Origin: Strigamia acuminata
Taxonomy: Eukaryota > Arthropoda > Chilopoda > Geophilomorpha > Linotaeniidae
Assembly: GCA_949358305.1 (NCBI GenBank)
Contig: OX442314.1
Coordinates: 59,157,369 to 59,221,368 of the forward strand
Length of the DNA stretch: 64,000 bases
Direction of reading: 5' to 3'
Part shown: in pieces, positions 1-63,846 of the stretch
Layout: each line of letters begins with the position of its first letter
How positions within the stretch are numbered: the stretch's first letter is position 1
Made by a program: the position numbers and the translations under genes
The notes under the pieces: model-generated
What the model saw: only the letters and a program-made list of their open reading frames with translations
Database searches by the model: none
What the model was told of the DNA's origin: nothing

Positions 1-629
1 CACTCTTCGGGCTCGCTTGGATAGTCCTTTTTCAAAAACTTGTTCAGGAGCGGTGCTGGTGCGTCGTCGCGTTCTGGAATTTCGGCCCTCAGTGCGTCGC
101 GCATCTTTTCTGGGAAGTAGTGTATCAGGGTCTCCTGACTCGCCCAGAATCGCGATCGGGCTCTGGATGCGGTGAGCCGAATGTGCCATGGGCCAGCGTC
201 GATGTCGTCTTCTAACGCTCTTCGATATGGAGTCGGGATCTCGCTCCTCCAGAGTGTACCCGAAGATACGTTTTGCGGATCGATGGGTCCCCACGTAAGT
301 TGGTGTTCCGGCTGAGGAATGAATAATAAAAATTAGATTTTGTCACATTCCGAATTTGGATTCAAGATGGCGCCATGGTCGACCATGTGCTTTTTACACG
401 TGTTGAATTTTTTAATAAAGGTTTTCGTAATTTTTTCGTATTGTTGAAATAAAGATGTTTTCTTTTTACGAATATTGTTTCACGTGTTTTTCGTGGTTTA
501 GCCACGAATTAAATTCTTTGTTAATTTTACCTTTTCGTTACTATCGGGCTTTTCCCGATTCTCTTCTGGTTCAACCTCGTCCCATCTTGCGGGATCGTTC
601 CATTCGTCTTCGCTCGGGTCCCGATCCAT
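1..629 (-). CDS. ORF3 of element A, two inferred exons, 3' end outside the window
   Basis: Exon 1 is 531-629 (33 codons, acidic, starts MDRDPSEDEW). It ends GAAAAG before a GT donor, exactly on a codon boundary. Exon 2 starts at 311 directly after a pyrimidine-rich tract ending CCTCAG, also in phase 0, and stays open to the window edge. Exon 2 has no ATG near its start, so it needs exon 1 for initiation. Its product shares the WGP(I/L)DP motif and the following roughly 80 residues (for example P-x-x-YRR and FPE-(K/G)-MR) with El-2 ORF3. Function is unknown; there is no signal peptide or membrane segment in the visible part. The splicing is inferred from the splice-site match and conservation in El-2. 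Confidence 0.7.
312..530 (-). other. Inferred intron of element A ORF3 (219 nt)
   Basis: Minus-strand donor AAG|GTAAAATT at 530 and acceptor ATTCATTCCTCAG at 312, with a T-rich tract just upstream. Both flanking exons are phase 0. The corresponding intron in El-2 is 845 nt, so the position is conserved while the length is not. Confidence 0.6.
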
Positions 630-921
630 TTCTTCCTCCTCGTTGTCGGGTGATTGCTTCCAGTTTCTTCGCATTTCTTGATTTAATTTGTTGGTTGCGA
701 TTTTTGTCAAACACCTGTTGTCGTCGTGACAGAACGCGGAGTGCAAAGTTGAAAGGGTAGTCGAGGTTAAGTATCTTGATTGGCTTTCGTATGTAATACG
801 TAGTTGATTGTTGGAGTCTCCTTGTGATTGTTTTTGTCCCTAGGAGGTCGGGGTAATTACGTCATATTGTTTTGTCGCTTTTGATTGGTTATGCCAACCA
901 TTTTGGATTTTTCTTGCTTTA

Positions 922-16764: not shown

Positions 16765-16930
16765 TAATTTTACTCATTAGTCTAAAGAGAGGCAGCTGGC
16801 AATTAAATATTACCCCTAGACAAGCTGGATTATTTTATTACAACCATAGGAATAAAACAGCGGGAAAAAAAACGATCAAACCTTTCGAAATAATTAATAA
16901 CCCTTTTTGAATTAATAGGACCACAACCTA

Positions 16931-27442: not shown

Positions 27443-27460
27443 TTTCTCGACCGTCTGCGC
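27397..27460 (+). promoter_or_regulatory. -1 ribosomal frameshift signal, El-1 gag-pol
   Basis: Two in-frame A AAA AAC heptamers (27397-27403 and 27409-27415), in a 12-nt direct repeat, are followed by a 6-nt spacer and a 10-bp stem GCGCAGGCGG/CCGTCTGCGC with one G-U pair (27422-27431, 27451-27460). Inner CG and AGAA/TTCT pairs extend the stem with single-A bulges. The gag TAA (27440-27442) lies in the apical part. The -1 frame is open from the heptamers into Pol. Confidence 0.88.
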
Positions 27461-27465
27461 CATTC

Positions 27466-30400: not shown

Positions 30401-33400
30401 TTATAATGGACGTGGCAACTCGTTGGCCCGAGTTGTACGCCGTCGCTAGACCTTCAGCAGAGAAAATCGTTGAATGTATCTACGACGTGGCGTTACGTTA
30501 CGGATTTCCACGTAAAATAATATCCGATAACGGACCCCAATTTATCTCGAAAATTTGGAGTAAGTTTTGTGAGAAATTCGGGATTGTGGCGTCACATACT
30601 TCGACCTACAATCCCAGAACAAATCCCGTTGAGCGACTCAACAGGGACATTAAATATGCACTAAGCATATTCACTGACATCCACAATAGGTGGGATGAAT
30701 ACTTGAGGGAGATCGCGTTCAGCATACGAACAACAGTCTCGAGGACGAGAGATTTTTCTCCGGCCTACCTCAACTTCGCCCGAGAGCTACGAGTGCCTTG
30801 GGACCCACGAGTGGCAGAGTCGGTAAATGTGGTGGACCCAGAGAAACCACATGAGTATGTGTATAAATTGGAGCAAACAATTTCGAGCACATACAAACAT
30901 ATGATGGCGCACATTTTTAACATGCGCGACCGCATTTTACAAGATAAAAGCGGTGGAAAATTCGTGAATTTCGAGATCAATGATTTGGTGTGGAAAGATG
31001 CACACACCCTCTCAAATGCAGCGAGAGGGATCACCGCCAGCTTGGCCGACAAGAGAGATGGTCCGTATGTGATCATCGGCAAGCATGGCGGTAACGCGTA
31101 TAAATTACGTAAGCTCGAGGACAATACCGAGCATAAGTCGATACAAGTACGAGAGTTAACTCCGTACATTCCGGAATTCCCGCAAGAAATGTGGGCCAAG
31201 GGCCAAGTCAAGTCTAAAACTGACGGCCAAATCGTCGATATGTTCGCTGGCGAGTCGGAAAAAGCACCGCCAAGTGACAACGAGGAGTATTTCGACGCCC
31301 CTTCACCTCCGGTAAACGAGATAGTTGAATCCGTTCCGGATCCAATTTTGGTCGGGGGGGAAACAGGAGAAACTCCTGAAACAAACACAAAAAACACGGA
31401 TAAAAAAGAAAGCAATAATGAGGAGGTACAGACACAAAAAACAACAAAAAATATCGTACCTGTCTCAGCACATCACCTGCGGCCTCGTAGAAGTAATCCG
31501 TTTATAAAAGACGGAAAGGAGTGCAAGGAGGTTTGGATGTCTGGTGACGAAGAGCGAGTCTCTCGTCCCAGCACTTCTAGACGTCCGCTGACTCATCGCG
31601 AGCAGCGGAAAAGAGATCGCAAGGAGCGATACTTCGCGAGGTGCGAAGCTCGGGGCCGTCCCATCCCCGAACCCGCCTACATCTCCAAGAGAGCGGGTCG
31701 ACGAAGTGGTAGCCAGTCAGGTGAGCGAAACGTCCCAGCGGCAGATACGCGGGACCTTCGCGAGATTCTGACTCAGATGAAGCGGACGAAACTGACACGT
31801 TTCGATCCCGCAATGAAACACGCCAGGAAGATGGGTGTTGTCACCGACGGAATGGTGACCCCACACGAGGTGGCAAGGTGGCTCGCAGACTACATAAATT
31901 CGCGACCGCGACCCGATGGCATGCCAACCGCCATCGTGCAGCCCTCGAGCTCCGAACCACATCTCCCGGCGCCCCAAGTCGCAATGACTGGGGTGCAAAC
32001 GACGGAGACGCCACCACCGCCGACGCAGCCACCACCACCGCTGCCGACGCCAACGCTGCCGACCAAGACGCAGCCGCCTCCGGACCTGCCGCCACCGTCG
32101 TTGTTGAATTCGAGCGATCCGCCGGATTTACCCACCGACCGCTCAGTCCTTCTCCCCGTTGGACAGAGCATTATGCAGGAATGTCGAGCCAATTTGACCG
32201 ACATTTACAGGCCGAGCCGACCCCGACCCGGTTCCTCGGCCCTGTTCTTCGAGAGGCGAGACGAAGAAGCGCGACTCGCGAGAGAAGCCGCCAACCCGAC
32301 TATCTCCGAGCTCTCAGCGTTTCGTTTCGTGATGGAAGACCCAAGAGTCTCCGCGCCCGCCTTGCGAGGTGTGGATCAAACACAGCGATATTTTATCGAA
32401 TGGGCAACCGCGATGATGAGTAAGCTCTCGCGTGCCTTCACTGCGGATTCAGAGCGATCGAATCCAGTGAATCGTCGCAGCCTACAGCTATCATTGACCA
32501 AGGTCATGATGCAGCTGCTAACCCCAGCACTCTTCGGAGAAGGGCGTCAGGCGATGGCCGCATGGTCTGTCGTGGACAGAGAGGGTGTACAGGTTCCCCG
32601 TGCACTCCTCGCAGAGTGGAGCTCCATTCTGCCCGACCCTGTGTTGACTCGCTACGAGCTAACCAGGGATGTGGTAAACCCAGAATTTGAAGGGTACAAG
32701 TTGCGAAGCACGGCATTTCGTTACACCTCCGCCACCTGGACAGCGGCGCCTACCCAACAACTGCGCGCCTTGACCATCCAGACGGAAGAATCGGCAGAGG
32801 ATGTAGACATGGTGATCTCGCTGACGAGCGGAGTTCCGATTCCGCCACCGATGCCTGCGGAGATATCCCCGCAAGGACCCGCCCTGTTCGAAGTGGCGGG
32901 TAAACCAAAGCGCTTGCTGTGCCGAACGCCACCCGTCAGGTCCGTCGAGCAAACGAAGCCGACACCGCCCGGGACCCCACCGGCCCGAGCGGCGACAACG
33001 ACGCAAGCAGTGATTCCCGCGGCCACCCAGAAGCCGAAGCCGGCACCGCCTCCACCAGACTATTATGGGCGAATCATCGACGAGTTTCCCCATCTTTCGA
33101 TGACGACGGCGACCAGGAGGTTTATCCTCGCGCAGCGGGACAAAGGCAAATCGGTCTTCATCTGGCTTCACAACCAGATACGGAAGACTAAAGACCTCAT
33201 CTTCCACCAGAGGTTGTTGAGAGCCCACCGTGCGCCAGTGACGCCAGCGGAAGCCAATGCCATCCGGCATACGAACACCGGCTTCTCCGCCTACATCCCG
33301 AGCGTTTGGTTACACGAGAGGACGCGTGCCCCGCATGAGCCAGTTGACGGCCATGCATTATGCTTCATTACGGAGCATGAGGACCCCCGCGATCGGTCCT

Positions 33401-33510
33401 CGGCGCTAGTAGGCGATCTACCCGCGCCACCCGGCACTCAACCGCCTGTCCCTGGAGTGAGTTACGCCCAGGTGACGGACTCAGTGTCGGGTCCCCCAAA
33501 AAAGAAGTAA
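27466..33510 (+). CDS. pol: El-1 Pol fused in frame to the ORF3 C-terminal region (2014 codons)
   Basis: Protease DSGADRSF is at about 99. RT has LCIDYRPLNA, TTMDLSKGYWQV, MPFGLVNAP and YLDDIVIAS (about 444). RNase H has HTDASRVGLGAA (about 590) and TDHQALQWL. The integrase H2C2 finger (HPLASHAGVSRTLYR...CQRCQAC) is at about 894-933, catalytic Asp in SVDVMG (about 962) and SDNGPQF (about 1019), Glu in NPVERLN (about 1054). The GPY/F module (KRDGPYVI) is at about 1195. From about 1352 the frame continues directly into ORF3 (KECKEVWMSGDEERVS) to its stop. In El-2 these are separate genes. Expression is likely as Gag-Pol by -1 frameshift. Confidence 0.93.
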   Translation: MKKKGFNKGFDKPPPVKEMGSDIANAQIQDRANNALQVITANAEAEAEEPNLLLEELPQVVEDTEEFRVFMCNVAVEYTNRLCMLPMTIEREKIMGLLDSGADRSFVSEDIVASLGLTDKIKGVNKNIRLKTANGMARPKGVILLTMEWLGGVEQHPFLVLPTCDRIFLLGLDLMASMEIQPNPITKSWNYIRNDKERPAIVVPPALVKEAADKTQWEKGLNKFVQDYDFKAFVTELQRDNVVETLVADAALELNEAAALRRVLLKYEGILSKKPGRTNRAIHEIKLTDNKPIRVAYKGMNPQKREIVQKMCQEMLDSGIVSEAQGEYATRVVLVMRPGSDPRLCIDYRPLNAVTEIDPIQMPSIESILRELSPFSWVTTMDLSKGYWQVEMRPEDKIKTAFYSPIGRLMFNVMPFGLVNAPSTFQRLIESVLGDILHQFVWAYLDDIVIASKTFEEHIEHIDQVLTRLAKAGLHVHPGKSKFCRKELAFLGYRIGVNGLAIGPEKIDAINRFPPPEDVKGVQRFMGMINFFGRLLPGLAEVAAPVTDLLKNENEFVWSNECNIAFNAIKRMLTEVGVMPLPDLNRPFILHTDASRVGLGAALLQTHVRDGVEQDLPCMFISRKLQGAEKNYNATELECLAVVWAIRKFRDYLEYTKFVVHTDHQALQWLMKLKEPAGRLARWQLELMACDLTIQYKPGKYNVVADALSRAPVSDPIDADDDGEDDSRIIYCPTSCHRWDLRKMNEIPTASPADVKFCGFWTRLYQPAADNYPNAKKEFKLERRINDPLLSAFHAHVGKQMQSNPPTREEIIVQQKLDKKCQDRARFVLTGKYPPNLTRRQKRRYAHESIDYLLDDGLLVKHHPNHQDDLSESDTAVKVVIPASLIGRVLWLLHGHPLASHAGVSRTLYRATQLFHWTGMKKDIALFVHQCQRCQACKPRRKSPFETIFLGPYAPFDCLSVDVMGPKPVTGNKNAYIIVIMDVATRWPELYAVARPSAEKIVECIYDVALRYGFPRKIISDNGPQFISKIWSKFCEKFGIVASHTSTYNPRTNPVERLNRDIKYALSIFTDIHNRWDEYLREIAFSIRTTVSRTRDFSPAYLNFARELRVPWDPRVAESVNVVDPEKPHEYVYKLEQTISSTYKHMMAHIFNMRDRILQDKSGGKFVNFEINDLVWKDAHTLSNAARGITASLADKRDGPYVIIGKHGGNAYKLRKLEDNTEHKSIQVRELTPYIPEFPQEMWAKGQVKSKTDGQIVDMFAGESEKAPPSDNEEYFDAPSPPVNEIVESVPDPILVGGETGETPETNTKNTDKKESNNEEVQTQKTTKNIVPVSAHHLRPRRSNPFIKDGKECKEVWMSGDEERVSRPSTSRRPLTHREQRKRDRKERYFARCEARGRPIPEPAYISKRAGRRSGSQSGERNVPAADTRDLREILTQMKRTKLTRFDPAMKHARKMGVVTDGMVTPHEVARWLADYINSRPRPDGMPTAIVQPSSSEPHLPAPQVAMTGVQTTETPPPPTQPPPPLPTPTLPTKTQPPPDLPPPSLLNSSDPPDLPTDRSVLLPVGQSIMQECRANLTDIYRPSRPRPGSSALFFERRDEEARLAREAANPTISELSAFRFVMEDPRVSAPALRGVDQTQRYFIEWATAMMSKLSRAFTADSERSNPVNRRSLQLSLTKVMMQLLTPALFGEGRQAMAAWSVVDREGVQVPRALLAEWSSILPDPVLTRYELTRDVVNPEFEGYKLRSTAFRYTSATWTAAPTQQLRALTIQTEESAEDVDMVISLTSGVPIPPPMPAEISPQGPALFEVAGKPKRLLCRTPPVRSVEQTKPTPPGTPPARAATTTQAVIPAATQKPKPAPPPPDYYGRIIDEFPHLSMTTATRRFILAQRDKGKSVFIWLHNQIRKTKDLIFHQRLLRAHRAPVTPAEANAIRHTNTGFSAYIPSVWLHERTRAPHEPVDGHALCFITEHEDPRDRSSALVGDLPAPPGTQPPVPGVSYAQVTDSVSGPPKKK

Positions 33511-49949: not shown

Positions 49950-50308
49950 TGTTGCAAAAGTTTAGAAACTTGAAGTAAAAAAATTAAAACCACCATTATA
50001 AATGAGTTTTACCTCAGTATTTGGTGGGATGGTGCTTTCACCTGATCACTGCAGCAATCCTTCTCACCATTGATGATGTCAGTTTTTGTCATCCTCTGCG
50101 GTGATTGATTCCCACACTTGTGTTATTGCAGCTTTCATTTCTGGGTTTGTGAGCTCTTAATCGTTTCTACATCAGCAGTCAAATATTTTCCATGGGATTC
50201 ATAACTGGTGAATTACCTGTCTAAGGTAAAAGTAATTTTTTTTGTGTTAAACCATTTCATTATGGTCTTGGTCATATGGAAGGGTGCTCCATCTTGCTTG
50301 AAGGTACT
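49950..50308 (-). pseudogene. Tc1/mariner-like transposase, C-terminal part (split by El-2)
   Basis: On the minus strand: TFKQDGAPFHMTKTIMKWFN, the second catalytic-Asp box of Tc1/mariner transposases, followed by frameshifted remnants of the MNP-(M/I)-EN box and the C-terminal end (RIAAVIR, TKY). Internal stops mark it as dead before El-2 inserted. The N-terminal side continues at 63847. Confidence 0.85.
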
Positions 50309-51327
50309 TGTTGTGACCCGACTGGACCGGGGTCAACGAAGAGTTTCTCTCGTGACCTCGTTTCGGGTGTAAGGGGAGCCGCAAGCGCGTCTCCCTTCCC
50401 TCAGTGCATTGACATCTAGTCAATGGACAGGCGTCTGCCCTGAGGGAGTAGGGATGGCTCGTCCACCCCACCATTGGGTGATTCCGGTCACCTGTCAACC
50501 CCGCTTTGTGCAAAGGAATGTGCCTTGCACTGAGCGGGCAGAACCAACACAACCATCAAACGAGAAACACACGTAAAATCCGTCGTCCTACAAGATCAGG
50601 CCCAAGTAAATATACTGGGATTGACCGAGGACAAAGGACAATTTACCGTGAGTACGTTTGGTCAGTGTCAAACTCCGCAGAGTAACCTGCGAGATAAGAT
50701 TACCACACTATTTTAGCACACCAGCTAGAAATAGTAAAAACCACTCCAGTTTAGCGAGTTGTGCAGACAAACGGTCGCACAAGCCTAAACTGCAGTAAAA
50801 CCACGACGAGCGTTCCCGCCGCTGTGTGAGCGCCGGGAGCCAGAAGAGTCCGCCGCTGTGTGATCGCCGGACACCACACAAAAAACCTAGACAACAGACC
50901 GAAGTAAGCCTTTTAACTAAGCATTCACTCGCGCCCGACCAGCGTGAGCCCGAAGGACCAGCCAGAGACGAGCCGAGGACGCCATATTGCCACGCCGGCC
51001 CAAGACGACATCACGTTGCTACAACGAGGACGCCATCTTGGACACGCACGAGACAACAGACGACCTCGCCGATTCCAGCCAGCTTTCATCTTACCTTTGC
51101 CTTTCCATTTCCCATCACCCATTCCGATTTACCTTTTACTTACCCTTTATATATATATATATAAGATATATCTGTACATTGCCCCGCAGAATAAATCTAT
51201 ATTATATTTTACCTTTTATATCTGTGTAATCATTTCTTTGGGTAAACCGCTTGAGCAAAGCGGTAGTGAGTTAGTCGAATTAAGTAATCAACCCACGAGT
51301 TAGCGACGGTTAGAGTTGAGCGCGACA
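50309..51327 (+). repeat. El-2 5' LTR (1019 bp)
   Basis: TGTTGTGACC...GCGCGACA. The first roughly 590 bp are almost identical to El-1; the rest is strongly diverged. A TATATATATATATATA run lies near 51147 and AATAAA at 51190-51195. The terminal hairpin ACCGCTT-GAGCA-AAGCGGT is kept. Confidence 0.96.
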
Positions 51328-51329
51328 CG

Positions 51330-51347
51330 TGGGGGCCTGTCCGGGAT
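51330..51347 (+). promoter_or_regulatory. El-2 primer binding site
   Basis: TGGGGGCCTGTCCGGGAT. It differs from the murine leukaemia virus tRNA-Pro site only in a two-base transposition, by comparison from memory. The implied C discriminator base before CCA fits eukaryotic tRNA-Pro. Confidence 0.8.
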
Positions 51348-51399
51348 CAAGTTGAATAACTGATTCTAACCTGTGATTACACCATACCCAAAGCAAGAA

Positions 51400-54300
51400 A
51401 TGGCAGATAATACTCGAGTAACAGACTCCGACTCAGACGTTAACAAACGAGCCGGTAGTCGCAAAGGAACCGACTATCATTTGAGGTCGGGAGGTCCTTT
51501 GCCCAAAGCCTCAGCGCACGAGTCTAGGCAAAAACGCCGCAAGGCCAAGCCAGACCGACGAAGCGCTTCGGAGGCATCGCACCCGTCTCACGCCGAGACG
51601 AGGCAGCGATTAGACGAGACGGAGCGGAGTGAGGATCCGTCCCACTCCAAACCGCCGCGTCTCCATCGTGACGGCGAGACGAGCGGAAACGAGGTTTTAT
51701 CCCGTAACCAATCGCCTCGTCTAACGCACGATACCGAGGTAAACGATCCGAGGGCGACGTCTTCGATACAAAGGACGGCGTCCGACACGACAGCGAATTC
51801 AGCGCTAAACACGCCAATTACGCACAGTCGACCAGCCTCGGTAGTGTCTGAAGGGCACAAGTCCAACTCGTCCTCTGTCAAGCGTGTTTCGAGCCAGCCT
51901 TACAGCGTCTCGGGCACCTTGATTGATGCGATGCAATTGGCACAAGCGGAGGGAGTGAGATACACCCTTCCGACGGGGAAGATTACAGTGTACGAAACGT
52001 TACAAATCGTACGTGCAGCTTTAAAAGCGCACAGTGTATCCCCACAAATCACCATTGTTGAAGGTGCACACGCTCAACAATTGGTTGATTCCGCTCAATT
52101 TGAAGCGGATGCAGAGAATGAGGCTCGACAAGCCATTCGCGAGAGACGGAGGAAGCTGGCGGAAAGAGAAGCGCAAGCTCTCGAGTACGGCAGAACCCAG
52201 CCCAATCCGACTACTCCCGAGGAGGTAGAAATAGTTGACCGAGCCCTGAGAGCACATCGATATGCTTTCCACTCGCAACAAGAAGCAGAGCGAGCATTTA
52301 TGGCCAGATTGCGACGAGATGACCCGAAATCCGTTCGCAAACCAGAGGTCAGTTCATCCGAGCTGTCCGACGAGAGCCTAGAGGGAGACCCAAAGCGCAC
52401 GCCGAAGGCCAAACCCAAACCCCAGCCGGAGAGGGCAACACCAGCTACTCCGCGCAAGAGAGATGCGTCGGCCAGAGAACAACAAACTCGGCCCCGCATG
52501 CAAGCTCTCGATTCAGCCACAAATAATGCGATAACACGGTTAATCAACGCTAATAATGCTAGGCGAAATGAAGAGCAAGCTCTCACAAGCCAACAGCAAG
52601 ATAATCCGCAAGGGACTGAGTGGCAACAACCAGTGCCCATCCTTGAAGACGACGAGTCGTCAAGGAGACAATCGCATGATCGCACCTCTTCGCGAGAAGA
52701 AGGCAAACGCGATGAAAGACCGAAATATTATCGCTACGGAAATAGTGATTCGTCGTCAGATGGACTGGAGTCAAATGCACCCAGTCATCACGATTCGGAG
52801 AGAGGTTCCGGAGAAAGACGAAGGGAAAGAGAACGCGATGAACGCAGGGAAAGGGAACGTGACGACCGTCGTAGGGGCCGGAAAGAGTCAAACTCTTCAC
52901 GGCGCAACCCGCCACGCCGCTCACCGTCTCCCGACCCCAGCTCCGACCCCTCATCCAACGACGACAGACGAAAGGAGAAATCAAGTAATCGCCGGAAGAG
53001 ATCCAACTCTCCGCGCGATAGAGAGAAACGACGTCGATCGGAAAATAGCGACCACCGACGGGAGGAGTTTCAGGACCTTCCCCGACAAAGCGCGTTTACC
53101 GATTCGACGGGTCGGCAGTATACGATGGGAGAGCTTGGAAGAGCCCTACTCGGCTCGTTAAAAGCCGAGGGAATCGATCTGAGCAAACGAAACGATCGTA
53201 ATCGTAGCACTGGCGACCGCGTAAAGAAAAAATACGCTGTCTCACGACGTGACACCATGAGTGTTACCGGGAATATTAGGTGGCAATTTTATATTCAGAA
53301 CCGTTTCGACGGGTCATGGAAAGCGGGAGATCGCTTCCTTGACGAAGTAATTCGAATTAAGACTGCCACTAAAGCCACCGTAGGAGACATGCTCACCCAC
53401 GGTATTGTCGAGCTAATGACAGGCTCGGCACGTGAGTGGTACCAAGGATTGAAAGGCGTCAATTGGGACGACTTTTTAATGAGATTCGACCTACGCTACG
53501 GCGAGACACCCGAAGAGGTGAGCCGAAAGATGCGAGGTCTTCGCCAGATGCCTGGTGAAACCATAATGGATTACGACATTCGCGCCAGATCGTTGTTCGA
53601 AAAGGCCCCGATGGAATTTCATGCCACGGGATTCAACCTTTTCTTTCTCGGCGGTTTGTCGGAGTACTCGCAACGGGTGTTACTTGAAGAAAGGGCACCG
53701 ACAGGAGGCAGCTACGAGGAGATGAGCGCCTTCCTGTTTGAGAACACGATAGATATCGAGAAGAGATATTATTCCGCTTTACCAGAAGCGGAGAAAGCAG
53801 CAACCGCTAAACGTCTCAAGTTGAGTGCGGAAAGATATGGGGCGACAGATAAAATTATGCGCCCTACTGAATATCTTAGCGGTATAATGGAGCTGGCAGA
53901 AGCTAGCGTTGGTTTACAAATAAAAAATAAACTGACATCCACGCTGCCTTCCAACCCTTTGGCCGCCCCTAAAAAGGCACCGACAGCGTCAGCCATGCAA
54001 GCGACACTGGAGGAGGTCAAGGAGGGGGAGGAAGCCGGACAAGATGCCGGAAAATCAGACGAAAAAGAAGAAAAAGACGATTATTCGACGAACGAAGAAA
54101 TACGAAGCTATCGCGATACCTTATCAACGGGTTGCGATGAGGAAGGACCGCTAGTACATCTCATCCATCGAGATAGAGCGGTAGAAGAATTTCGCGCCAG
54201 GTTAAAACCAAATGCCGGCCGAATTCCGAAGTATTTTCGGAAAAATTACACGCCACCGTCGAAAGCAGACCCTGAAAAGAAAAAATCGACTGAAGCCCCA

Positions 54301-54483
54301 AGAGACAAATCAAATATTCGTTGTTTCAAGTGTAACCAACCGGGTCACTATTCCAATGAGTGCCCAAGAACAGCGAAAGAAGACGCTAAATTTGACGCAA
54401 TAATGAAGCAGATGGCAGAGATTAAACTCGCCATGGCAAAAAACGAGTCAAAAAACGAGTCAGCGCAGGCGGCGAAGAAATAA
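51400..54483 (+). CDS. gag: El-2 Gag
   Basis: 1027 codons from the ATG at 51400, same length and domain order as El-1 Gag: disordered N-terminus, helical middle, RE/RS-rich tract, capsid-like region and CCHC knuckle CFKCNQPGHYSNEC near 975-988. Differences are scattered single residues (for example RARSLF here versus CARLLF in El-1 after MDYDI). The N-terminal region has no membrane or signal features. It forms particles and packages RNA by family analogy. Confidence 0.95.
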   Translation: MADNTRVTDSDSDVNKRAGSRKGTDYHLRSGGPLPKASAHESRQKRRKAKPDRRSASEASHPSHAETRQRLDETERSEDPSHSKPPRLHRDGETSGNEVLSRNQSPRLTHDTEVNDPRATSSIQRTASDTTANSALNTPITHSRPASVVSEGHKSNSSSVKRVSSQPYSVSGTLIDAMQLAQAEGVRYTLPTGKITVYETLQIVRAALKAHSVSPQITIVEGAHAQQLVDSAQFEADAENEARQAIRERRRKLAEREAQALEYGRTQPNPTTPEEVEIVDRALRAHRYAFHSQQEAERAFMARLRRDDPKSVRKPEVSSSELSDESLEGDPKRTPKAKPKPQPERATPATPRKRDASAREQQTRPRMQALDSATNNAITRLINANNARRNEEQALTSQQQDNPQGTEWQQPVPILEDDESSRRQSHDRTSSREEGKRDERPKYYRYGNSDSSSDGLESNAPSHHDSERGSGERRRERERDERRERERDDRRRGRKESNSSRRNPPRRSPSPDPSSDPSSNDDRRKEKSSNRRKRSNSPRDREKRRRSENSDHRREEFQDLPRQSAFTDSTGRQYTMGELGRALLGSLKAEGIDLSKRNDRNRSTGDRVKKKYAVSRRDTMSVTGNIRWQFYIQNRFDGSWKAGDRFLDEVIRIKTATKATVGDMLTHGIVELMTGSAREWYQGLKGVNWDDFLMRFDLRYGETPEEVSRKMRGLRQMPGETIMDYDIRARSLFEKAPMEFHATGFNLFFLGGLSEYSQRVLLEERAPTGGSYEEMSAFLFENTIDIEKRYYSALPEAEKAATAKRLKLSAERYGATDKIMRPTEYLSGIMELAEASVGLQIKNKLTSTLPSNPLAAPKKAPTASAMQATLEEVKEGEEAGQDAGKSDEKEEKDDYSTNEEIRSYRDTLSTGCDEEGPLVHLIHRDRAVEEFRARLKPNAGRIPKYFRKNYTPPSKADPEKKKSTEAPRDKSNIRCFKCNQPGHYSNECPRTAKEDAKFDAIMKQMAEIKLAMAKNESKNESAQAAKK

Positions 54484-54501
54484 CTTCTCGACCGTCTGCG
54501 C
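54438..54501 (+). promoter_or_regulatory. -1 ribosomal frameshift signal, El-2 gag-pol
   Basis: Heptamers A AAA AAC at 54438-54444 and 54450-54456; 6-nt spacer; stem arms 54463-54472 and 54492-54501 (GCGCAGGCGG/CCGTCTGCGC). The only difference from El-1 in this hairpin is one loop base (T to C), leaving all pairs intact. The gag TAA is in the apical part. Confidence 0.88.
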
Positions 54502-54506
54502 CATTC

Positions 54507-57500
54507 ATGAAGAAGAAGGGGTTTAACAAAGGGTTCGATAAGCCGCCACCAGTCAAAGAAATGGGTAGTGACATAGCTAACGCCCAAATTCAAGACAGGG
54601 CCAACAACGCTTTGCAGGTAATTACCGCAAACGCTGAGGCTGAGGCGGAAGAACCGAACCTACTGCTTGAAGAATTACCTCAAGTAGTCGAAGACACAGA
54701 AGAATTTCGTGTTTTCATGTGCAACGTGGCGGTCGAATACACCAACCGCCTATGCATGTTGCCCATGACAATAGAACGTGAAAAAATTATGGGACTGCTA
54801 GACTCGGGAGCAGATCGCTCGTTCGTTTCCGAAGACATAGTAGCATCATTGGGTCTCACCGATAAGATAAAAGGCGTTAATAAAAATATACGTCTAAAAA
54901 CCGCCAACGGAATGGCGCGTCCAAAAGGAGTTATATTATTGACCATGGAGTGGCTCGGAGGGGTAGAACAGCACCCTTTCCTGGTCCTGCCCACATGCGA
55001 CAGAATTTTTCTGTTGGGCTTAGACCTCATGGCGTCAATGGAAATACAACCAAATCCAATAACGAAATCTTGGAATTATATCAGAAATGATAAGGAAAGA
55101 CCCGCAATTGTCGTGCCACCAGCTCTTGTAAAAGAAGCGGCCGACAAGACACAGTGGGAGAAAGGCCTAAAGAAATTCGTTCAAGACTACGATTTTAAAG
55201 CATTCGTAACAGAATTGCAACGGGACAATGTAGTGGAAACGCTTGTCGCCGACGCCGCTTTAGAATTAAACGAAGCGGCAGCCCTACGAAGGGTCCTACT
55301 TAAATATGAGGGGATCCTGTCGAAAAAACCGGGCCGAACGAATAGGGCTATTCACGAAATTAAATTGACGGATAATAAACCTATACGAGTTGCGTATAAG
55401 GGAATGAACCCGCAAAAACGTGAAATAGTGCAAAAAATGTGCCAAGAAATGCTAGACAGTGGCATTGTCTCCGAGGCCCAGGGAGAATACGCGACGCGAG
55501 TTGTGCTCGTGATGCGCCCGGGCTCGGACCCACGCCTATGCATTGATTACCGCCCATTAAACGCGGTGACAGAGATAGATCCCATACAGATGCCGTCTAT
55601 CGAATCCATTTTGAGAGAGCTCAGCCCCTTTTCTTGGGTTACGACGATAGATCTGTCGAAGGGATACTGGCAGGTTGAGATGAGGCCAGAGGATAAGCTA
55701 AAAACAGCATTTTACTCGCCAATTGGACGGTTGATGTTCAACGTCATGCCATTTGGTTTAGTGAACGCTCCCAGTACCTTTCAGAGACTAATCGAAAGCG
55801 TATTGGGTGATATCCTGCATCAGTTTGTGTGGGCATACCTAGATGACATAGTTATTGCCTCCAAAACATTCGAAGAGCACATTGAGCATATCGACCAAGT
55901 GCTCACCCGGCTGGCGAAAGCTGGGTTACACGTTCACCCGGGCAAGAGCAAGTTCTGTCGAAAGGAGCTTGCCTTCCTGGGTTATCGCATTGGAGTCAAT
56001 GGTTTAGCTATTGGCCCCGAAAAAATCGATGCGATTAATCGTTTCCCACCACCCGAGGACGTTAAAGGTGTCCAACGGTTTATGGGAATGATAAACTTCT
56101 TCGGCAGGTTGCTACCGGGCCTAGCTGAAGTGGCAGCCCCAGTTACCGACCTCCTGAAGAATGAAAACGAATTTGTATGGTCAAATGAGTGCAACATCGC
56201 ATTTAATGCAATAAAGAGGATGCTGACAGAAGTCGGCGTAATGCCTCTACCCGACTTAAACCGGCCGTTCATATTACACACGGACGCCAGCAGAGTTGGG
56301 TTAGGAGCGGCGTTGCTCCAAACACACGTGCGCGACGGAGTCGAACAAGACCTGCCGTGCATGTTTATAAGTCGCAAACTCCAAGGCGCTGAAAAGAATT
56401 ACAATGCCACCGAGTTGGAGTGTTTGGCCGTTGTGTGGGCCATAAGGAAATTCAGAGATTATCTCGAATATACCAAATTTGTGGTCCACACAGATCATCA
56501 AGCGTTACAATGGCTGATGAAATTAAAAGAGCCAGCCGGTCGACTAGCCAGATGGCAGTTAGAACTGATGGCATGCGACTTGACCATTCAATACAAGCCC
56601 GGCAAATATAACGTCGTGGCTGACGCTCTGTCACGGGCACCAGTGTCAGATCCAATCGACGCTGACGATGATGGCGAGGATGACTCCCGCATCATTTATT
56701 GCCCTACGAGTTGTCACCGTTGGGATTTAAGGAAGATGAATGAAATTCCTACCGCGTCTCCGGCAGATGTAAAATTCTGTGGATTCTGGACGCGGTTATA
56801 CCAACCAGCTGCTGACAATTACCCAGATGCAAAGAGGGAATTTAAGCTAGAGCGGAGAATAAATGACCCGCTACTAAGCGCCTTCCACGCTCATGTCGGC
56901 AAGCAAATGCGAAGCAATCCCCCGACGAGGGAGGAAATAATTGTGCAACAAAAATTAGACAAAAAATGTCAGGACAGAGCTAGATTCGTACTGACAGGAA
57001 AATATCCGCCCAACTTAACCAGAAGGCAGAAGCGTCGTTATGCACACGAATCCATAGATTACCTATTGGATGACGGCCTTTTAGTGAAACATCACCCAAA
57101 TCACCAAGATGACTTGAGTGAATCGGACACCGCAGTAAAGGTAGTAATACCTGCTTCCTTAATCGGTCGCGTGCTGTGGTTGTTACACGGGCACCCGCTT
57201 GCGAGCCATGCGGGAGTAAGCAGAACACTCTATCGTGCTACACAGCTTTTTCACTGGACAGGGATGAAAAAAGATATTGCTCTTTTTGTCCACCAATGTC
57301 AGCGATGTCAAGCGTGCAAGCCGAGGAGTAAATCACCATTCGAAACGATTTTCTTAGGGCCTTACGCGCCTTTTGATTGTTTAAGTGTCGATGTGATGGG
57401 CCCAAAACCCGTTACGGGAAATAAAAATGCGTACATTATCGTTATAATGGACGTGGCAACTCGTTGGCCCGAGTTGTACGCCGTCGCTAGACCTTCAGCA

Positions 57501-58577
57501 GAGAAAATCGTTGAATGTATCTACGACGTGGCGTTATGTTACGGATTTCCACGTAAAATAATATCCGATAACGGACCCCAATTTATCTCGAAAATTTGGG
57601 GTAAGTTTTGTAAAAAATTCGGGATTGTGGCGTCACATACTTCGACCTACAATCCTAGAACAAATCCCGTTGAGCGACTCAACAGGGATATCAAATATGC
57701 ATTAAGTATATTCACTGACATCCACAATAGGTGGGATGAATACTTGAGGGAGATCGCGTTCAGCATACGAACAACAGTCTCGAGGACGAGAGATTTTTCT
57801 CCGGCCTACCTCAACTTCGCCCGAGAGCTACGAGTGCCTTGGGACCCACGAGTGGCAGAGTCGGTAAATGTGGTGGACCCAGAGAAACCACATGAGTATG
57901 TGTATAAATTGGAGCAAACAATTTCGAACACATACAAGCATATGATGGCGCACATTTTTAACATGCGCGACCGCATTTTACAAGATAAAAGCGGTGGAAA
58001 ATTCGTGAATTTCGAGATCAATGATTTGGTGTGGAAAGATGCACACACCCTCTCAAATGCAGCGAGAGGGATCACCGCCAGCTTGGCCGACAAGAGAGAT
58101 GGTCCGTATGTAATCATCGGCAAGCATGGCGGTAACGCGTATAAATTACGCAAGCTCGAGGACAACACCGAGCAAAAATCGATCCAGGTACGAGAGTTAA
58201 CTCCGTACATTCCGGAATTCCCGCAAGAAATGTGGGCCAAGGGCCAAGTCAAGTCTAAAACTGACGGCCAAATCGTCGATATGTTCGCTGGCGAGTCGGA
58301 AAAAGCACCGCCAAGTGACAACGAGGAGTATTTCGACGCCCCTTCACCTCCGGTCAACGAGATCGTTGAATCCGTTCCGGATCCAATTTTGGTCGGGGGG
58401 GAAACAGGAGAAACTCCTGAAACAAACACAAAAAACACGGATAAAAAAGAAAACAATAATGAGGAGGTACAGACACAAAAAACAACAAAAAATATCGTAC
58501 CTGCCTCGATCCGTAACCTGCGACCAAAAAGAGATAATCCGTTTATAAAAGGCGGAAAGGTCGTAGGAAAGAAGTAA
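54507..58577 (+). CDS. pol: El-2 Pol polyprotein
   Basis: 1356 codons: protease (DSGADRSF, about 99), RT (LCIDYRPLNA; YLDDIVIAS about 444), RNase H (HTDASRVGLGAA about 590; ATELECLAVVWA; TDHQALQWL), integrase H2C2 finger (about 894-933), DDE core (SVDVMG, SDNGPQF, NPVERLN) with one residue fewer between the second Asp and the Glu than the usual 35, and GPY/F module (KRDGPYVI). It ends NPFIKGGKVVGKK. The Pol frame is open upstream to the frameshift heptamers, so the product is probably Gag-Pol and the 54507 Met is not needed. All catalytic residues I can place are intact. Confidence 0.96.
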   Translation: MKKKGFNKGFDKPPPVKEMGSDIANAQIQDRANNALQVITANAEAEAEEPNLLLEELPQVVEDTEEFRVFMCNVAVEYTNRLCMLPMTIEREKIMGLLDSGADRSFVSEDIVASLGLTDKIKGVNKNIRLKTANGMARPKGVILLTMEWLGGVEQHPFLVLPTCDRIFLLGLDLMASMEIQPNPITKSWNYIRNDKERPAIVVPPALVKEAADKTQWEKGLKKFVQDYDFKAFVTELQRDNVVETLVADAALELNEAAALRRVLLKYEGILSKKPGRTNRAIHEIKLTDNKPIRVAYKGMNPQKREIVQKMCQEMLDSGIVSEAQGEYATRVVLVMRPGSDPRLCIDYRPLNAVTEIDPIQMPSIESILRELSPFSWVTTIDLSKGYWQVEMRPEDKLKTAFYSPIGRLMFNVMPFGLVNAPSTFQRLIESVLGDILHQFVWAYLDDIVIASKTFEEHIEHIDQVLTRLAKAGLHVHPGKSKFCRKELAFLGYRIGVNGLAIGPEKIDAINRFPPPEDVKGVQRFMGMINFFGRLLPGLAEVAAPVTDLLKNENEFVWSNECNIAFNAIKRMLTEVGVMPLPDLNRPFILHTDASRVGLGAALLQTHVRDGVEQDLPCMFISRKLQGAEKNYNATELECLAVVWAIRKFRDYLEYTKFVVHTDHQALQWLMKLKEPAGRLARWQLELMACDLTIQYKPGKYNVVADALSRAPVSDPIDADDDGEDDSRIIYCPTSCHRWDLRKMNEIPTASPADVKFCGFWTRLYQPAADNYPDAKREFKLERRINDPLLSAFHAHVGKQMRSNPPTREEIIVQQKLDKKCQDRARFVLTGKYPPNLTRRQKRRYAHESIDYLLDDGLLVKHHPNHQDDLSESDTAVKVVIPASLIGRVLWLLHGHPLASHAGVSRTLYRATQLFHWTGMKKDIALFVHQCQRCQACKPRSKSPFETIFLGPYAPFDCLSVDVMGPKPVTGNKNAYIIVIMDVATRWPELYAVARPSAEKIVECIYDVALCYGFPRKIISDNGPQFISKIWGKFCKKFGIVASHTSTYNPRTNPVERLNRDIKYALSIFTDIHNRWDEYLREIAFSIRTTVSRTRDFSPAYLNFARELRVPWDPRVAESVNVVDPEKPHEYVYKLEQTISNTYKHMMAHIFNMRDRILQDKSGGKFVNFEINDLVWKDAHTLSNAARGITASLADKRDGPYVIIGKHGGNAYKLRKLEDNTEQKSIQVRELTPYIPEFPQEMWAKGQVKSKTDGQIVDMFAGESEKAPPSDNEEYFDAPSPPVNEIVESVPDPILVGGETGETPETNTKNTDKKENNNEEVQTQKTTKNIVPASIRNLRPKRDNPFIKGGKVVGKK

Positions 58578-58727
58578 AATAAATTACGAGTCGATGGCGG
58601 CACTAAAAATAAATTCTAATCGACCGATAGTGCAAGCCATCACGTTGCGAGACTCGAAGAAAATTCCGCTAAGTCCAACAAAGCGGATATCGGTCGAATT
58701 CACGTCACAAGATGGCGTGGAAGCGCG

Positions 58728-58884
58728 GGACCCGTAGCAAAATTATCGGCACGGGTCGGATACCGCGTGCAAAAGACCCCGTAGCAGCAATCGCGCACGG
58801 GAGTGAAAACAAAAAAGACCCCGTAGCAGCAATCGCGCACGGGAGTGAAAACAAAGGAGACCCGTAGCGTAACATGCGCACGGG
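58728..58884 (+). repeat. Four tandem CCCGT/ACGGG hairpin units in the pol-ORF3 spacer
   Basis: Two perfect 40-bp units (58771-58810, 58813-58852; GACCCCGTAGCAGCAATCGC then GCACGGGAGTG) are flanked by one degenerate unit on each side. Each unit carries the pairing arms CCCGT and ACGGG around an 11-16 nt loop. It lies between the pol stop and ORF3 exon 1, and is absent from El-1. Confidence 0.8.
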
Positions 58885-59095
58885 TAAGTGCGCACTAGTC
58901 TCAAACACCCGGGTTCTGGAGTATATTACCCAGAATCCATCGCGATTACCTCGTGTTCACACGGACTTCCGCTTTCACAGCTGATCGCTGCATTCGTGCG
59001 TGATCCTCGTTTTTAACGTTTTTATCGAGTTTTTTGAGATAGTTTTATCATCCTTTTTTCAATCGTGATTGAGCTTTTTGTGCGCGCTCCTCGCC

Positions 59096-62000
59096 ATGGA
59101 CGAGGAAGAGAACGACGTGCTTGCCATCGAGCACGAGGACGAGGCAAACTGGGACCACGATGTAAACCAAGTCCCACCCGATCAGGTAGAAGTCGGCGTC
59201 GGCACATGAGAATTATTTCCATGCTGCTGAAGAAGAAATTTTGTTGACTAATACCTGACATGAGTGCTTTGCACTCACAATAGCGTATAATTAATTATTA
59301 ACCGCGATCGCTCACACGATCGTATTTTTTTCTTGTTAATTTGTTTTCGGGATGCGATCGTAGACTTCACGTCGCCTCGCGTCTCGAAAATTCCTCATGA
59401 CATGAGTCACGAGCGAGACAATGGGCTCGAGCCATAAATAATTTTATGACAAGGGGAGAATATTCTGTAAAAGAATATTTTTCTCCACAAGTAATTTGAC
59501 GCATCGAATTGATGCAACTTAACATTCGTACGATGAATTTTTCGGTGTGTTGGATAAATTTAATTTGACTTTAACTTTTTTTAAAATTAGACAAAGTCCG
59601 ACTTCGGAATAATTCTTTATTAGATTTATTTATTTAATAAAATTTCGACAAGCACATTTATTGTGCAATTTTAGTAATAATTCACACCCGACGAACTCTT
59701 TTTACGAATGACTGATAATTATTAATTTAATTATTAGTAATGTTCTAATTAACGTTAGAATTAATTTGAAGTAAAATCTGATGATAAAAATCCGGATTAA
59801 AGGCTCGATTCCGTCTCGCTGTGCGTTTTGGACATGAGACAGATTTTTTACGTGATGACTTCTTTTTTTTCTATCCGACGAGGGACAATTCGTCCTACGT
59901 TTGCACCGATAGACAGGAATCGGTCTTGACGGACGGCTGCACGTATCGGCAACGTCCCTCGAAACCAACCATTTATCTACGTATTTAAATATTAACTTTT
60001 TATTAATTGTTTATTTCTCCATCCTTCCAGATGGCACTACGTAAAACATGGGGACCATTAGACCCCGCTTGCATCGCTCGTGGCGGGATATTTCGAGGCG
60101 CGCTGCCCGAATTTTACCGACGATGTTTCGGCGAGGACGCCGACCCTTGGCGCCTGCGAATACTACATTCCCGATGCATCGCCCGACGTTGGGTACGAGA
60201 CTGTACGCTCCTGGACACGTTCCCGGAGGGGATGCGCGAAGGCATCGCCACAGAGTTAGCTCGTGACGAGGACCCGAAATCGCCAATTTTCCACCCCGGA
60301 TTGTCAAGTCAGTACACTGGCACTCCGGCGGAGGAACACGTGCTGCATGCGTGGCGAGCAGCCGAGACAGAAGAGGCCCGTGAGGCCATCTATCAGCAGT
60401 ATAGACAACAGCTGGTGGATACCGCTGCGGCAGTGGCCGAGCGCATCCTCCAAAACGAGGGGATGACCGCGGATGATATTCATCTGTGGTTTGAGAGGCT
60501 GCGATTGGGAGAGAGTACGCCCCAGTGGAGACCTCGGATGGGAATTTTAACGTCCCAAGCCGAGATGTGGCAGCTCCACCACCTGGGGATTTTGGGGCCC
60601 AAAAGCAGCTACCCGCGGAAGCGCAAGCGCTCCAAAGGCGCCGGGAACAGCCAGTCGCGTTCCCCGGTGACAACCAAGAAGCAGCGTGTCGCTCAAAACA
60701 CGACTGAAAGCAACGACGCTGGGCCATCCACTAGTACGGTGCGTGACCCTTCGCAGTATTCCCGACCGCGAATTTTCGTAAACCGTCAGATTAAAGACGG
60801 TAAGGAGTGCAAGGAGGTTTGGATGTCTGGTGATGAAGAGCGAGTCTCTCGTCCCAGCACTTCTAGACGTCCGCTGACTCATCGCGAGCAGCGGAAAAAA
60901 GATCGCAAGGAGCGATACTTCGCGAGGTGCGAAGCTCGGGGCCGTCCCATCCCCGAACCCGCCTACATCTCCAAGAGAGCGGGTCGACGAAGTGGTAGCC
61001 AGTCAGGTGAGCGACACGTCCCAGCGGCAGATACGCGGGACCTTCGCGAGATTCTGACTCAGATGAAGCGGACGAAACTGACACGTTTCGATCCCGCGAT
61101 GAAACACGCCAGGAAGATGGGTGTTGTCACCGACGGAAAGGTGACCCCACACGAGGTGGCAAGGTGGCTCGCAGACTACATAAATTCGCGACCGCGACCC
61201 GATGGCATGCCAACCGCCATCGTGCAGCCTTCGAGCTCCGAACAACATCTCCCGGCGCCCCAAGTCGCAATGACTGGGGTGCAGACGACGGAGACGCCAC
61301 CACCACCGACGCAGCCGCCACCACCGCTGCCGACGCCGACGCTGCCGACCAAGACGCAGCCGCCTCCGGACCTGCCGCCACCGTCGTTGTTGAATTCGAG
61401 CGATCCGCCGGATTTACCCACCGACCGCTCAGTCCCTCTCCCCGTTGGACAGAGCATTATGCAGGAATGTCGAGCCAATTTGACCGACATTTACAGGCCG
61501 AGCCGACCCCGACCCGGTTCCTCGGCCCTGTTCTTCGAGAGGCGAGACGAAGAAGCGCGACTCGCGAGAGAAGCCGCCAACCCGACTATCTCCGAGCTCT
61601 CAGCGTTTCGCTTCGTGATGGAAGACCCAAGAGTCTCCGCGCCCGCCTTGCGAGGTGTGGATCAGACACAGCGATATTTTATCGAATGGGCAATCGCGAT
61701 GATGAGTAAGCTCTCGCGTGCCTTCACTGCGGATTCAGAGCGATCGAATCCAGTGAATCGTCGCAGCCTACAGCTATCATTGACCAAGGTCATGATGCAG
61801 CTGCTAACCCCAGCACTCTTCGGAGAAGGGCGTCAGGCGATGGCCGCATGGTCTGTCGTGGACAGAGAGGGTGTACAGGTTCCCCGTGCACTCCATTCTG
61901 CCATTCTGCCCGACCCTGTGTTGACTCGGTACGAGCTAACCAGGGATGTGGTAAACCCCGAATTTGAGGGGTACAAGTTGCGAAGCACGGCGTTTCGTTA

Positions 62001-62787
62001 CACCTCCGCCACCTGGACAGCGGCGCCTACCCAACAACTGCGCGCCTTGACCATCCAGACGGAAGAATCGGCAGAGGATGTAGACATGGTGATCTCGCCG
62101 ACGAGCGGAGTTCCGATTCCGCCACCGATGCCTGCGGAGATATCCCCGCAAGGACCCGCCCTGTTCGAAGTGGCGGGTAAACCAAAGCGCTTGCTGTGCC
62201 GAACGCCACCCGTCAGGTCCGTCGAGCAAACGAAGCCGACACCGCCCGGGACCTCACCGGCCCGAGCGGCGACATCAACGCAAGCAGTGATTCCCGCGGC
62301 CACCCAGAAGCCGAAGCCGGCACCACCTCCACCAGACTATTATGGGCGAATCATCGACGAGTTTCCCCATCTTTCGATGACGACGGCGACCAGGAGGTTT
62401 ATCCTCGCGCAGCGGGACAAAGGCAAATCGGTCTTCATCTGGCTTCACAACCAGATCCGGAAGACTAAAGACCTCATCTTCCACCAGAGGTTGCTGAGAG
62501 CCCACCGTGCGCCAGTGACGCCAGCGGAAGCCAATGCCATCCGGCATACGAACACCGGCTTCTCCGCCTACATCCCGAGCGTTTGGTTACACGAGAGGAC
62601 GCGTGCCCCGCATGAGCCAGTTGACGGCCATGCATTATGTTTCATTACGGAGCATGAGGACCCCCGTGATCGGTCCTCGGCGCTAGTAGGCGATCTACCC
62701 GCGCCACCCGGCACTCAACCGCCTGTCCCTGGAGTGAGTTACGCCCAGGTGACGGACTCAGTGTCGGGTCCCCCAGGAAAGAAGTGA
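59096..62787 (+). CDS. El-2 ORF3, two inferred exons, protein of unknown function
   Basis: Exon 1 is 59096-59185 (30 codons, strong GCCATGG context, very acidic: MDEEENDVLA...). It ends CAG before GTAGAAG on a codon boundary. Exon 2 is 60031-62787, starts right after TTTCTCCATCCTTCCAG in phase 0, and has its own ATG. Total about 948 residues. Visible parts: an N-terminal helical domain with WGPLDP and FYRRCF, shared with element A; basic nuclear-signal-like PRKRKRSK (about 230) and TKKQR; a Ser/Arg-rich linker; a proline-rich tract (PPPPTQPPPPLPTPTLP); a helical region (SAFRFVMEDPRVSAPALRG); a second proline-rich linker; and a conserved end (FPHLSMTTATRRFILAQRDKG). No signal peptide, membrane segment or envelope motif. 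Function unknown. Confidence 0.75.
59186..60030 (+). other. Inferred ORF3 intron of El-2 (845 nt)
   Basis: Donor CAG|GTAGAAG and acceptor TTTATTTCTCCATCCTTCCAG|ATG. The interior is AT-rich with many stops. Without splicing, exon 1 would end at a TGA 7 codons past the donor. An additional acceptor-like site, TTCCGCTTTCACAG ending at 58980, lies upstream of exon 1 and could join a 5' leader. Confidence 0.65.
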
Positions 62788-62812: not shown

Positions 62813-62823
62813 GGAGGGGGAAG
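62813..62823 (+). promoter_or_regulatory. El-2 polypurine tract
   Basis: GGAGGGGGAAG immediately before the 3' LTR. Confidence 0.85.
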
Positions 62824-63842
62824 TGTTGTGACCCGACTGGACCGGGGTCAACGAAGAGTTTCTCTCGTGACCTCGTTTCGGGTGTAAGGGGAGCCGCAAG
62901 CGCGTCTCCCTTCCCTCAGTGCATTGACATCTAGTCAATGGACAGGCGTCTGCCCTGAGGGAGTGGGGATGGCTCGTCCACCCCACCATTGGGTGATTCC
63001 GGTCACCTGTCAACCCCGCTTTGTGCAAAGGAATGTGCCTTGCACTGAGCGGGCAGAACCAACACAACCATCAAACGAGAAACACACGTAAAATCCGTCG
63101 TCCTACAAGATCAGGCCCAAGTAAATATACTGGGATTGACCGAGGACAAAGGACAATTTACCGTGAGTACGTTTGGTCAGTGTCAAACTCCGCAGAGTAA
63201 CCTGCGAGATAAGATTACCACACTATTTTAGCACACCAGCTAGAAATAGTAAAAACCACTCCAGTTTAGCGAGTTGTGCAGACAAACGGTCGCACAAGCC
63301 TAAACTGCAGTAAAACCACGACGAGCGTTCCCGCCGCTGTGTGACCGCCGGGAGCCAGAAGAGTCCGCCGCTGTGTGATCGCCGGACACCACACAAAAAA
63401 CCTAGACAACAGACCGAAGTAAGCCTTTTAACTAAGCATTCACTCGCGCCCGACCAGCGTGAGCCCGAAGGACCAGCCAGAGACGAGCCGAGGACGCCAT
63501 ATTGCCACGCCGGCCCAAGACGACATCACGTTGCTACAACGAGGACGCCATCTTGGACACGCACGAGACAACAGACGACCTCGCCGATTCCAGCCAGCTT
63601 TCATCTTACCTTTGCCTTTCCATTTCCCATCACCCATTCCGATTTACCTTTTACTTACCCTTTATATATATATATATAAGATACATCTGTACATTGCCCC
63701 GCAGAATAAATCTATATTATATTTTACCTTTTATATCTGTGTAATCATTTCTTTGGGTAAACCGCTTGAGCAAAGCGGTAGTGAGTTAGTCGAATTAAGT
63801 AATCAACCCACGAGTTAGCGACGGTTAGAGTTGAGCGCGACA
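62824..63842 (+). repeat. El-2 3' LTR (1019 bp)
   Basis: Same length as the 5' LTR. I see three differences: GGGAGTA/GGGAGTG, GTGAGCG/GTGACCG and AGATATA/AGATACA. Confidence 0.96.
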
Positions 63843-63846
63843 TACT

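Follow-up and report, generated by a model that had tools for sequence, protein, structure and literature searches.

What does a Ty3/gypsy retrotransposon encode in a third gene that appears to be split by an intron and not to specify an envelope protein? The question is raised by El-2. This complete Ty3/gypsy element, which spans about 13.5 kb, carries a third gene (ORF3) 3' of pol and lies in a 64,000-nucleotide stretch of the Strigamia acuminata genome (hereafter the window; C1:59157369-59221368 of the 237.5-Mb assembly in which all own-genome searches were conducted). The original prediction, made from the letters of this window, described the same split gene in El-2 and in a diverged element, A, at the left edge of the window, and inferred that the two exons are joined by splicing. 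On the evidence presented here we consider it likely that El-2, A and a third group of elements, B, are related Ty3/gypsy families whose spliced ORF3 encodes an intracellular, probably nuclear, non-envelope accessory protein.

Exon-intron structure of ORF3

Reading of the El-2 and A elements gave the following exons and introns:

59096..59185, plus strand: El-2 ORF3 exon 1, 30 codons, MDEEEN...PPDQ, net charge -12
59186..60030, plus strand: El-2 ORF3 intron, 845 nt, GT-AG, precisely missing from a copy on C6
60031..62787, plus strand: El-2 ORF3 exon 2, 918 codons to 62784, stop at 62785-62787
531..674, minus strand: A family ORF3 exon 1, 48 codons from an ATG at 674
312..530, minus strand: A family ORF3 intron, 219 nt, precisely missing from three A copies
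1..311, minus strand: A family ORF3 exon 2, first part, running beyond the window (851 codons in the copy L016)

For El-2, exon 1 at 59096-59185, the GT donor, the 845-nt intron, the AG acceptor and exon 2 from 60031 all lie where they had been predicted, the donor reading CAG/GTAGAA and the acceptor CCTTCCAG/ATG. The A element of the window shows the same gene order on the minus strand, and its 219-nt phase-0 intron, with the donor after 531 and exon 2 from 311, likewise agrees with the earlier description. Comparison of further family members, proposed at the time as a check, revealed that GT and AG are intact in all 20 distinct intron-bearing El-2-type copies read, that of the window included (intron 842-854 nt; the duplicate rows L014 (= L002) and L015 (= L008) were counted once), and likewise in all 12 of the fetched A copies that have the intron. 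Because the copies are mostly near-alike, retention of the splice sites is weak evidence when taken alone. The A+T fraction is 0.64 in the El-2 intron and 0.70 in the A intron, compared to 0.40 in El-2 exon 2 and 0.53 in pol, and both introns contain stop codons in all three frames.

One coordinate had to be revised. The start of A exon 1, formerly set at 629, more likely lies at 674, because an in-frame ATG, reading MRRNWKQSPDNEEEEMD..., occurs 15 codons upstream; this upstream reading is found in nine of the 15 fetched A copies, the remaining six having been missed by the exact-match probe. Exon 2 of A, which begins PEHQLTWGPIDP, indeed has no start codon at its beginning: its first methionine is residue 70, compared to residue 66 in B and residue 1 in El-2.

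The claim that diverged elements share this structure can be extended to B, in which the layout and the intron phase are those of El-2 and A. Exon 1 of B starts MRNDWK in four of five copies and MKRNDWK in one, and it reads MRNDWK...GNWDEP...QPD in most of the five; the donor is GAC/GTAAGTA in all five and the intron measures 268-284 nt. In one B copy, L039, the acceptor region is altered with an AG still in phase, and this copy was missed by the B acceptor pattern. Joined ORF3 comprises 948 residues in El-2, 899 in A and 946 in B. Given the same layout in B and the precise intronless copies in two families (see below), the split structure of ORF3 is not a chance arrangement.

Acceptor patterns run genome-wide with up to three mismatches located 180 places with the El-2-type acceptor end of the intron (the 100 listed are exact matches), 54 with the A-type end (AG kept in 53) and 99 with the B-type end (AG kept in 98). 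The single A place at which the acceptor AG is lost is C1:55837049. A search with the N-terminal part of El-2 exon 2 gave 959 candidates, of which 150 were scored, a set that favours good copies; all 150 matched at 95-100% identity, and in 140 of them the stop-to-stop frame is no shorter than 873 aa, one of these 140 having a TGA inside the match. A query with the A exon 2 fragment (150 of 806 candidates scored) returned 57 A-like copies at 87-100% identity and 93 B copies at 49-54%.

Intronless copies as evidence of splicing

In the genome, the predicted El-2 junction pattern matches a single place, C6:10318245-10318279, at which one letter differs; its reversed control matches none. The element at this place contains both long terminal repeats (LTRs), gag and pol, and 59186-60030 is the sole part that it lacks compared to El-2: it matches El-2 up to 59185 and resumes from 60028, the 3-letter overlap fitting an acceptor at 60031. 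It is flanked by the target-site duplication AGTT, its LTRs differ at 1 of 1,020 sites, and an intron-bearing copy (L045) matches its exon 2 stretch over 1,116 nt without a difference. The A junction pattern (531 joined to 311) occurs at three places with zero mismatches, in copies originally picked for their longer open frames (960 aa). Their mutual identity is 99.92-99.96% over the longest match and their 3' flanks differ, so that the intronless form seems itself to have moved; most likely, the three descend from one splicing event. Upstream of the intron, an intron-bearing A copy (L027) and an intronless one (L030) agree at every position of 2,277 nt; downstream of it, their identity is 99.94% over 3,257 nt.

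Splicing at the predicted coordinates is thus supported by reverse-transcribed evidence for the El-2 and A types, in the form of four genomic copies without exactly the predicted intron. Since gag and pol are still present in the spliced C6 copy, full-length RNA can lose the intron. On the other hand, the copy counts (180 + 54 + 99 places with an acceptor and 4 without intron, about 337 in all) indicate that most RNA turned into new DNA retains the ORF3 intron.

Mosaic diversity of ORF3

ORF3 is mosaic and often far more diverse than pol between copies. Two A copies, L029 and L034, are nearly identical in the C-terminal half of pol (0.4% difference) and in the ORF3 N-domain (0.7%), whereas they differ by 13.4% in the middle of ORF3, by 18.1% in its C-terminal part and by 5.3% in the LTR part. 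Across 78 pairs of 13 A copies, the median divergence at fourfold sites is 7.0% for pol, 10.1% for the N-domain and 20.0% for the rest of ORF3; this last part is more diverged than pol in 72 of the 78 pairs and exceeds 20% in six of the 16 pairs with less than 3% divergence in pol. Grouping the A copies at a 3% cut-off for each 200 nt gave 1-4 sequence classes in pol, against 3-8 in exon 2 and 3-5 for the LTR part; these classes switch partners along the element. This class analysis covered 13 of the 15 fetched copies as well as what the window contains of its A copy; L024 and L033, whose upstream parts differ, were excluded from it and from the fourfold analysis. Similarly, L035 and L036, from the five B copies, differ by 1.0% in pol and by 23.6% in the C part of ORF3, and the identity between El-2 and the copy L012 drops from 97-98% to 58-75% inside exon 2. 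Because the silent sites have diverged too, the diversity of ORF3 is old variation that recombination has merged, not the product of a burst of amino-acid change. The simplest route to this mosaic would be template switching between co-packaged RNAs, through which ORF3 alleles could be reshuffled among co-resident elements.

Selection, composition and homology of the ORF3 protein

ORF3 is under purifying selection. The ratio of nonsynonymous to synonymous substitution rates (dN/dS; Nei-Gojobori, own script) of exon 2 ranges from 0.085 to 0.362 in 11 chosen within-family pairs, three between-family pairs being saturated at synonymous sites, and ORF3 is therefore maintained as a protein. Exon 2 of A and of B is 28-30% identical to that of El-2, with conserved N-terminal, middle and C-terminal blocks (for example HQRLLRAHRAP near the end). 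Exon 1 carries a W-D motif and has a net charge of -11 to -13 across the families, and the body consists of the N-domain, an arginine-rich basic linker, proline-rich stretches and conserved middle and C-terminal domains. The nuclear-signal-like parts that had been noted earlier are present as basic clusters, such as PRKRKR or GRKRQK, C-terminal to the N-domain.

Profile searches, also proposed with the original prediction, revealed no relative of ORF3 beyond chance scores in three collections: the best matches were Peptidase_M16_C (E 0.02, El-2) and Tax (E 0.14, A fragment) in Pfam, both below the cut-off, a family with E 0.26 in PHROGs, and Filamin-C with E 0.44 in PDB; an ORF3 profile matched nothing. 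Two ORF3 searches of a set of 5.8 billion proteins (7,993 and 7,990 candidates scored) likewise yielded no relative.

Expression and function of ORF3

In the reading that we favour, ORF3 would be a gene between pol and the 3' LTR that is divided by one conserved phase-0 spliceosomal intron, and removal of this intron from element RNA would join the acidic W-D exon to a body of about 850-920 residues. Because the start codon of ORF3 lies downstream of pol, the message would most likely be a separate 3' transcript with its own start that is spliced once. The spacer between pol and ORF3 in El-2 may be an internal promoter or a 5' untranslated region; in a by-eye inspection for a common promoter, AACCAATCAAA was common to the spacers of A and B, not El-2. 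The El-2 spacer also contains a strong donor-like site, CGG/GTAAGT at 58883 (8 of 9 consensus letters), within a short repeated stretch, and there may be a further exon upstream. Judging from its sequence features, the ORF3 product is probably an intracellular, nuclear accessory protein and not an envelope; it may aid expression of the element or evade host control.

Regulator, defence antagonist and particle protein are each compatible with these data. Tentatively, ORF3 might be a structural protein of the particle or associated with the capsid rather than a nuclear regulator. Its large size, proline-rich stretches and several conserved domains would suit such a role; the basic nuclear-signal-like clusters, and an hhalign comparison with the elements' own Gag that showed no profile similarity (E 0.68 with shallow profiles), argue against it. 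Just as tentatively, ORF3 might counter a host defence, small-RNA silencing for instance. The purifying selection seen in ORF3, taken with its deep allelic diversity and mosaic exchange, would fit frequency-dependent selection, but there is neither homology nor direct evidence for such an antagonist, and the overall dN/dS, to which no site test was added, gives no sign of positive selection. We regard as rather unlikely the more specific proposal of a split-gene nuclear regulator akin to Tat, Rev or Tax, in which an acidic, activation-domain-like exon would be spliced to a nucleic-acid-binding body, retention or removal of the intron would switch between genome RNA and regulator mRNA, and divergent alleles would be kept and reshuffled.

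Improbable in our judgement is that the acceptor at 60030 is also, or mainly, joined to a remote 5' donor, such that exon 2 is translated without exon 1. Exon 2 of El-2 starts with ATG, there is retroviral precedent, and the region 51328-51800 holds two GT sites that score 6 of 9, equal to the true El-2 donor. However, no methionine occurs in exon 2 before residue 70 in A or 66 in B, exon 1 is joined precisely to exon 2 in four copies, and, among the 40 of 299 and 40 of 184 candidates that were scored and judged by eye, the spacing between leader and exon 1 was in no case clearly below element length.

It is very improbable that ORF3 is a highly diverged envelope gene which, like that of insect errantiviruses, is expressed through a spliced subgenomic RNA. 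Like the env of gypsy or ZAM, it is a third gene of a Ty3/gypsy element, lies 3' of pol and uses splicing, and it is more diverse than pol, as env genes often are. Errantivirus Env has a signal peptide, a furin site, a fusion peptide and a transmembrane segment (PMC12992720), whereas the 19-residue hydrophobicity maximum of ORF3 is 1.07 in El-2, 1.47 in A and 1.84 in B, with no window above 1.6 in El-2 or A and three adjacent ones in B, so that no convincing membrane segment was seen in the three proteins. Nor did Pfam return any envelope family match. The original description of ORF3 as non-envelope therefore gains support from the Pfam, PHROGs and PDB searches, from the lack of a convincing membrane segment and from the basic nuclear-signal-like clusters, its signal-peptide part being a reading of hydrophobicity. 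The position of the intron also differs: in Drosophila, the splicing partner of the env exon lies upstream of gag in ZAM and Beagle, is an AU dinucleotide in springer and lies within gag in idefix, being located before or within gag in several subclades (PMC12992720), whereas in ORF3 exon 1 is 3' of pol, the entire intron falls between pol and the 3' LTR, and gag and pol persist in the spliced C6 copy.

Hardly credible, finally, is an origin of the intronless copies by DNA deletion, which we reject despite the short repeats at each junction (3 nt for El-2 and 2 nt for A, as often seen at splice sites), because the junctions equal the sites predicted beforehand in two families with the frame intact and the C6 element has its target-site duplication and near-identical LTRs.

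Several observations weigh against a spliced gene for a nuclear accessory protein. Intronless places are few, 4 out of about 337 recognised ones; the three in A probably represent one event, and B yielded no intronless copy. The El-2 donor is weak, with 6 of 9 consensus letters (7 of 9 in A and B). As for the loss of a splice site while both exons stay open, which had been singled out from the start as telling against splicing, the acceptor AG is lost at one of 99 B places and one of 54 A places and kept otherwise; both exons are open in the B case, L037, one of five B copies read. The nuclear location and function of ORF3 are deduced from its composition, and an arginine-rich protein would be expected to contain basic clusters by chance. 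Structure models of two ORF3 parts were poor, with predicted local distance difference test (pLDDT) scores of 52 (mostly helical) and 32. Lastly, another element of the window, El-1 (27385-33510), carries only part of the gene:

31504..33510, plus strand: C-terminal part of ORF3 in El-1, fused in frame to pol, with exon 1, intron and N-domain lost

The fusion frame of pol and ORF3 spans 2,041 aa, the join lies in a short common stretch (NPFIKDGK and QIKDGK), and the junction recurs with two mismatches at a second locus (L051, C1:1185709). Although El-1 is devoid of exon 1, intron and N-domain, its LTRs differ at only 1 of 988 sites, and a complete ORF3 is therefore not needed in cis.

Comparison with known third genes

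The view that a third gene in gypsy elements is mostly an envelope, from which the original prediction set out, has to be softened, since non-envelope third genes have already been described, for example in bdelloid rotifers (PMC5408684). There, the LTR elements Juno and Vesta resemble El-2 in having a non-envelope ORF3, and such ORF3s are typically separate transcriptional units with spliced messages (PMC5408684); they include GDSL esterases and DEDDy exonucleases, domains that Pfam did not detect in the centipede protein. Plant Ogre has a partly spliced Ty3/gypsy intron (PMC6317226), whereas the intron described here sits inside the third gene. The Drosophila MDG1 group resembles our families in carrying non-envelope extra genes, sORF1 and sORF2, in Ty3/gypsy elements, but these are short, sORF2 has a transmembrane segment, and no splicing of their transcripts is evident (PMC11952523). 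ORF3, at 899-948 aa, is not a short protein with one transmembrane segment of the kind represented by sORF2 (FAST-like). Extra genes that are non-envelope or unassigned have also been described in plant LTR elements (PMC7264820, PMC11963269).

Non-envelope third genes are thus already known, and ORF3 is a variant with an intron inside the gene. Our literature searches, which covered open-licence papers, brought up neither a description of ORF3 nor one of an animal gypsy element whose non-envelope third gene contains an intron. The plant element Grande reportedly has an accessory gene in its 3' internal region that encodes a nuclear protein and has its own promoter. By this description alone Grande can be likened to our families, in which a 3' accessory gene is present and an own promoter and a nuclear location of the product are presumed; it differs in host kingdom.

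The El-2 element and other features of the window

The remaining features of El-2 are as follows:

50305..50308, no strand: 5' target-site duplication TACT
50309..51327, plus strand: 5' LTR, 1,019 bp, TG...CA
51330..51347, plus strand: primer binding site TGGGGGCCTGTCCGGGAT, tRNA-Pro-like
51400..54483, plus strand: gag, Retrotrans_gag and CCHC knuckle
54426..58577, plus strand: pol with protease (PR), reverse transcriptase (RT), RNase H and integrase (IN), -1 frame relative to gag, stop at 58575-58577
58578..59095, plus strand: spacer between pol and ORF3, one donor-like site
62813..62823, plus strand: polypurine tract-like stretch GGAGGGGGAAG
62824..63842, plus strand: 3' LTR
63843..63846, no strand: 3' target-site duplication TACT

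We take the primer binding site TGGGGGCCTGTCCGGGAT to be that for tRNA-Pro. The two LTRs of El-2 differ at 3 of 1,019 sites. Assignment to Ty3/gypsy follows from LTRs with TG...CA ends and short target-site duplications in El-2, El-1 and the C6 copy, and from gag with a zinc knuckle and the pol order PR-RT-RNase H-IN in El-2. Among the 120 listed of 2,967 relatives in the set of 5.8 billion proteins, none is more than 46% identical to pol.

The window's A copy contains, at 1882-2694, an inverted pol segment that matches El-2 pol residues 626-895; in this copy, no match was seen for residues 487-625 and 896-1061 on either side. A single-frame poly(A)-polymerase-like open reading frame occupies 10778-12451 on the minus strand, with a partial second copy at 38288-39307 (minus strand), and the flanks of the two are repeated at 86-92% identity. 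On the minus strand at 12938-16773 there are matches to a reverse transcriptase, a Dam-like methyltransferase and a tyrosine recombinase of the phage integrase family, in what is presumably a DIRS-like element.

Implications

Precise intronless copies of an element within a genome provide evidence of splicing without recourse to RNA, an approach that is general. Because intronless sister copies occur naturally, the role of the intron in a retrotransposon third gene becomes directly comparable. ORF3 represents an orphan protein family under purifying selection, carried on hundreds of gypsy copies, and its spliced structure and its mosaic, unusually diverse coding region are not explained by the usual gag-pol-env picture of such elements.

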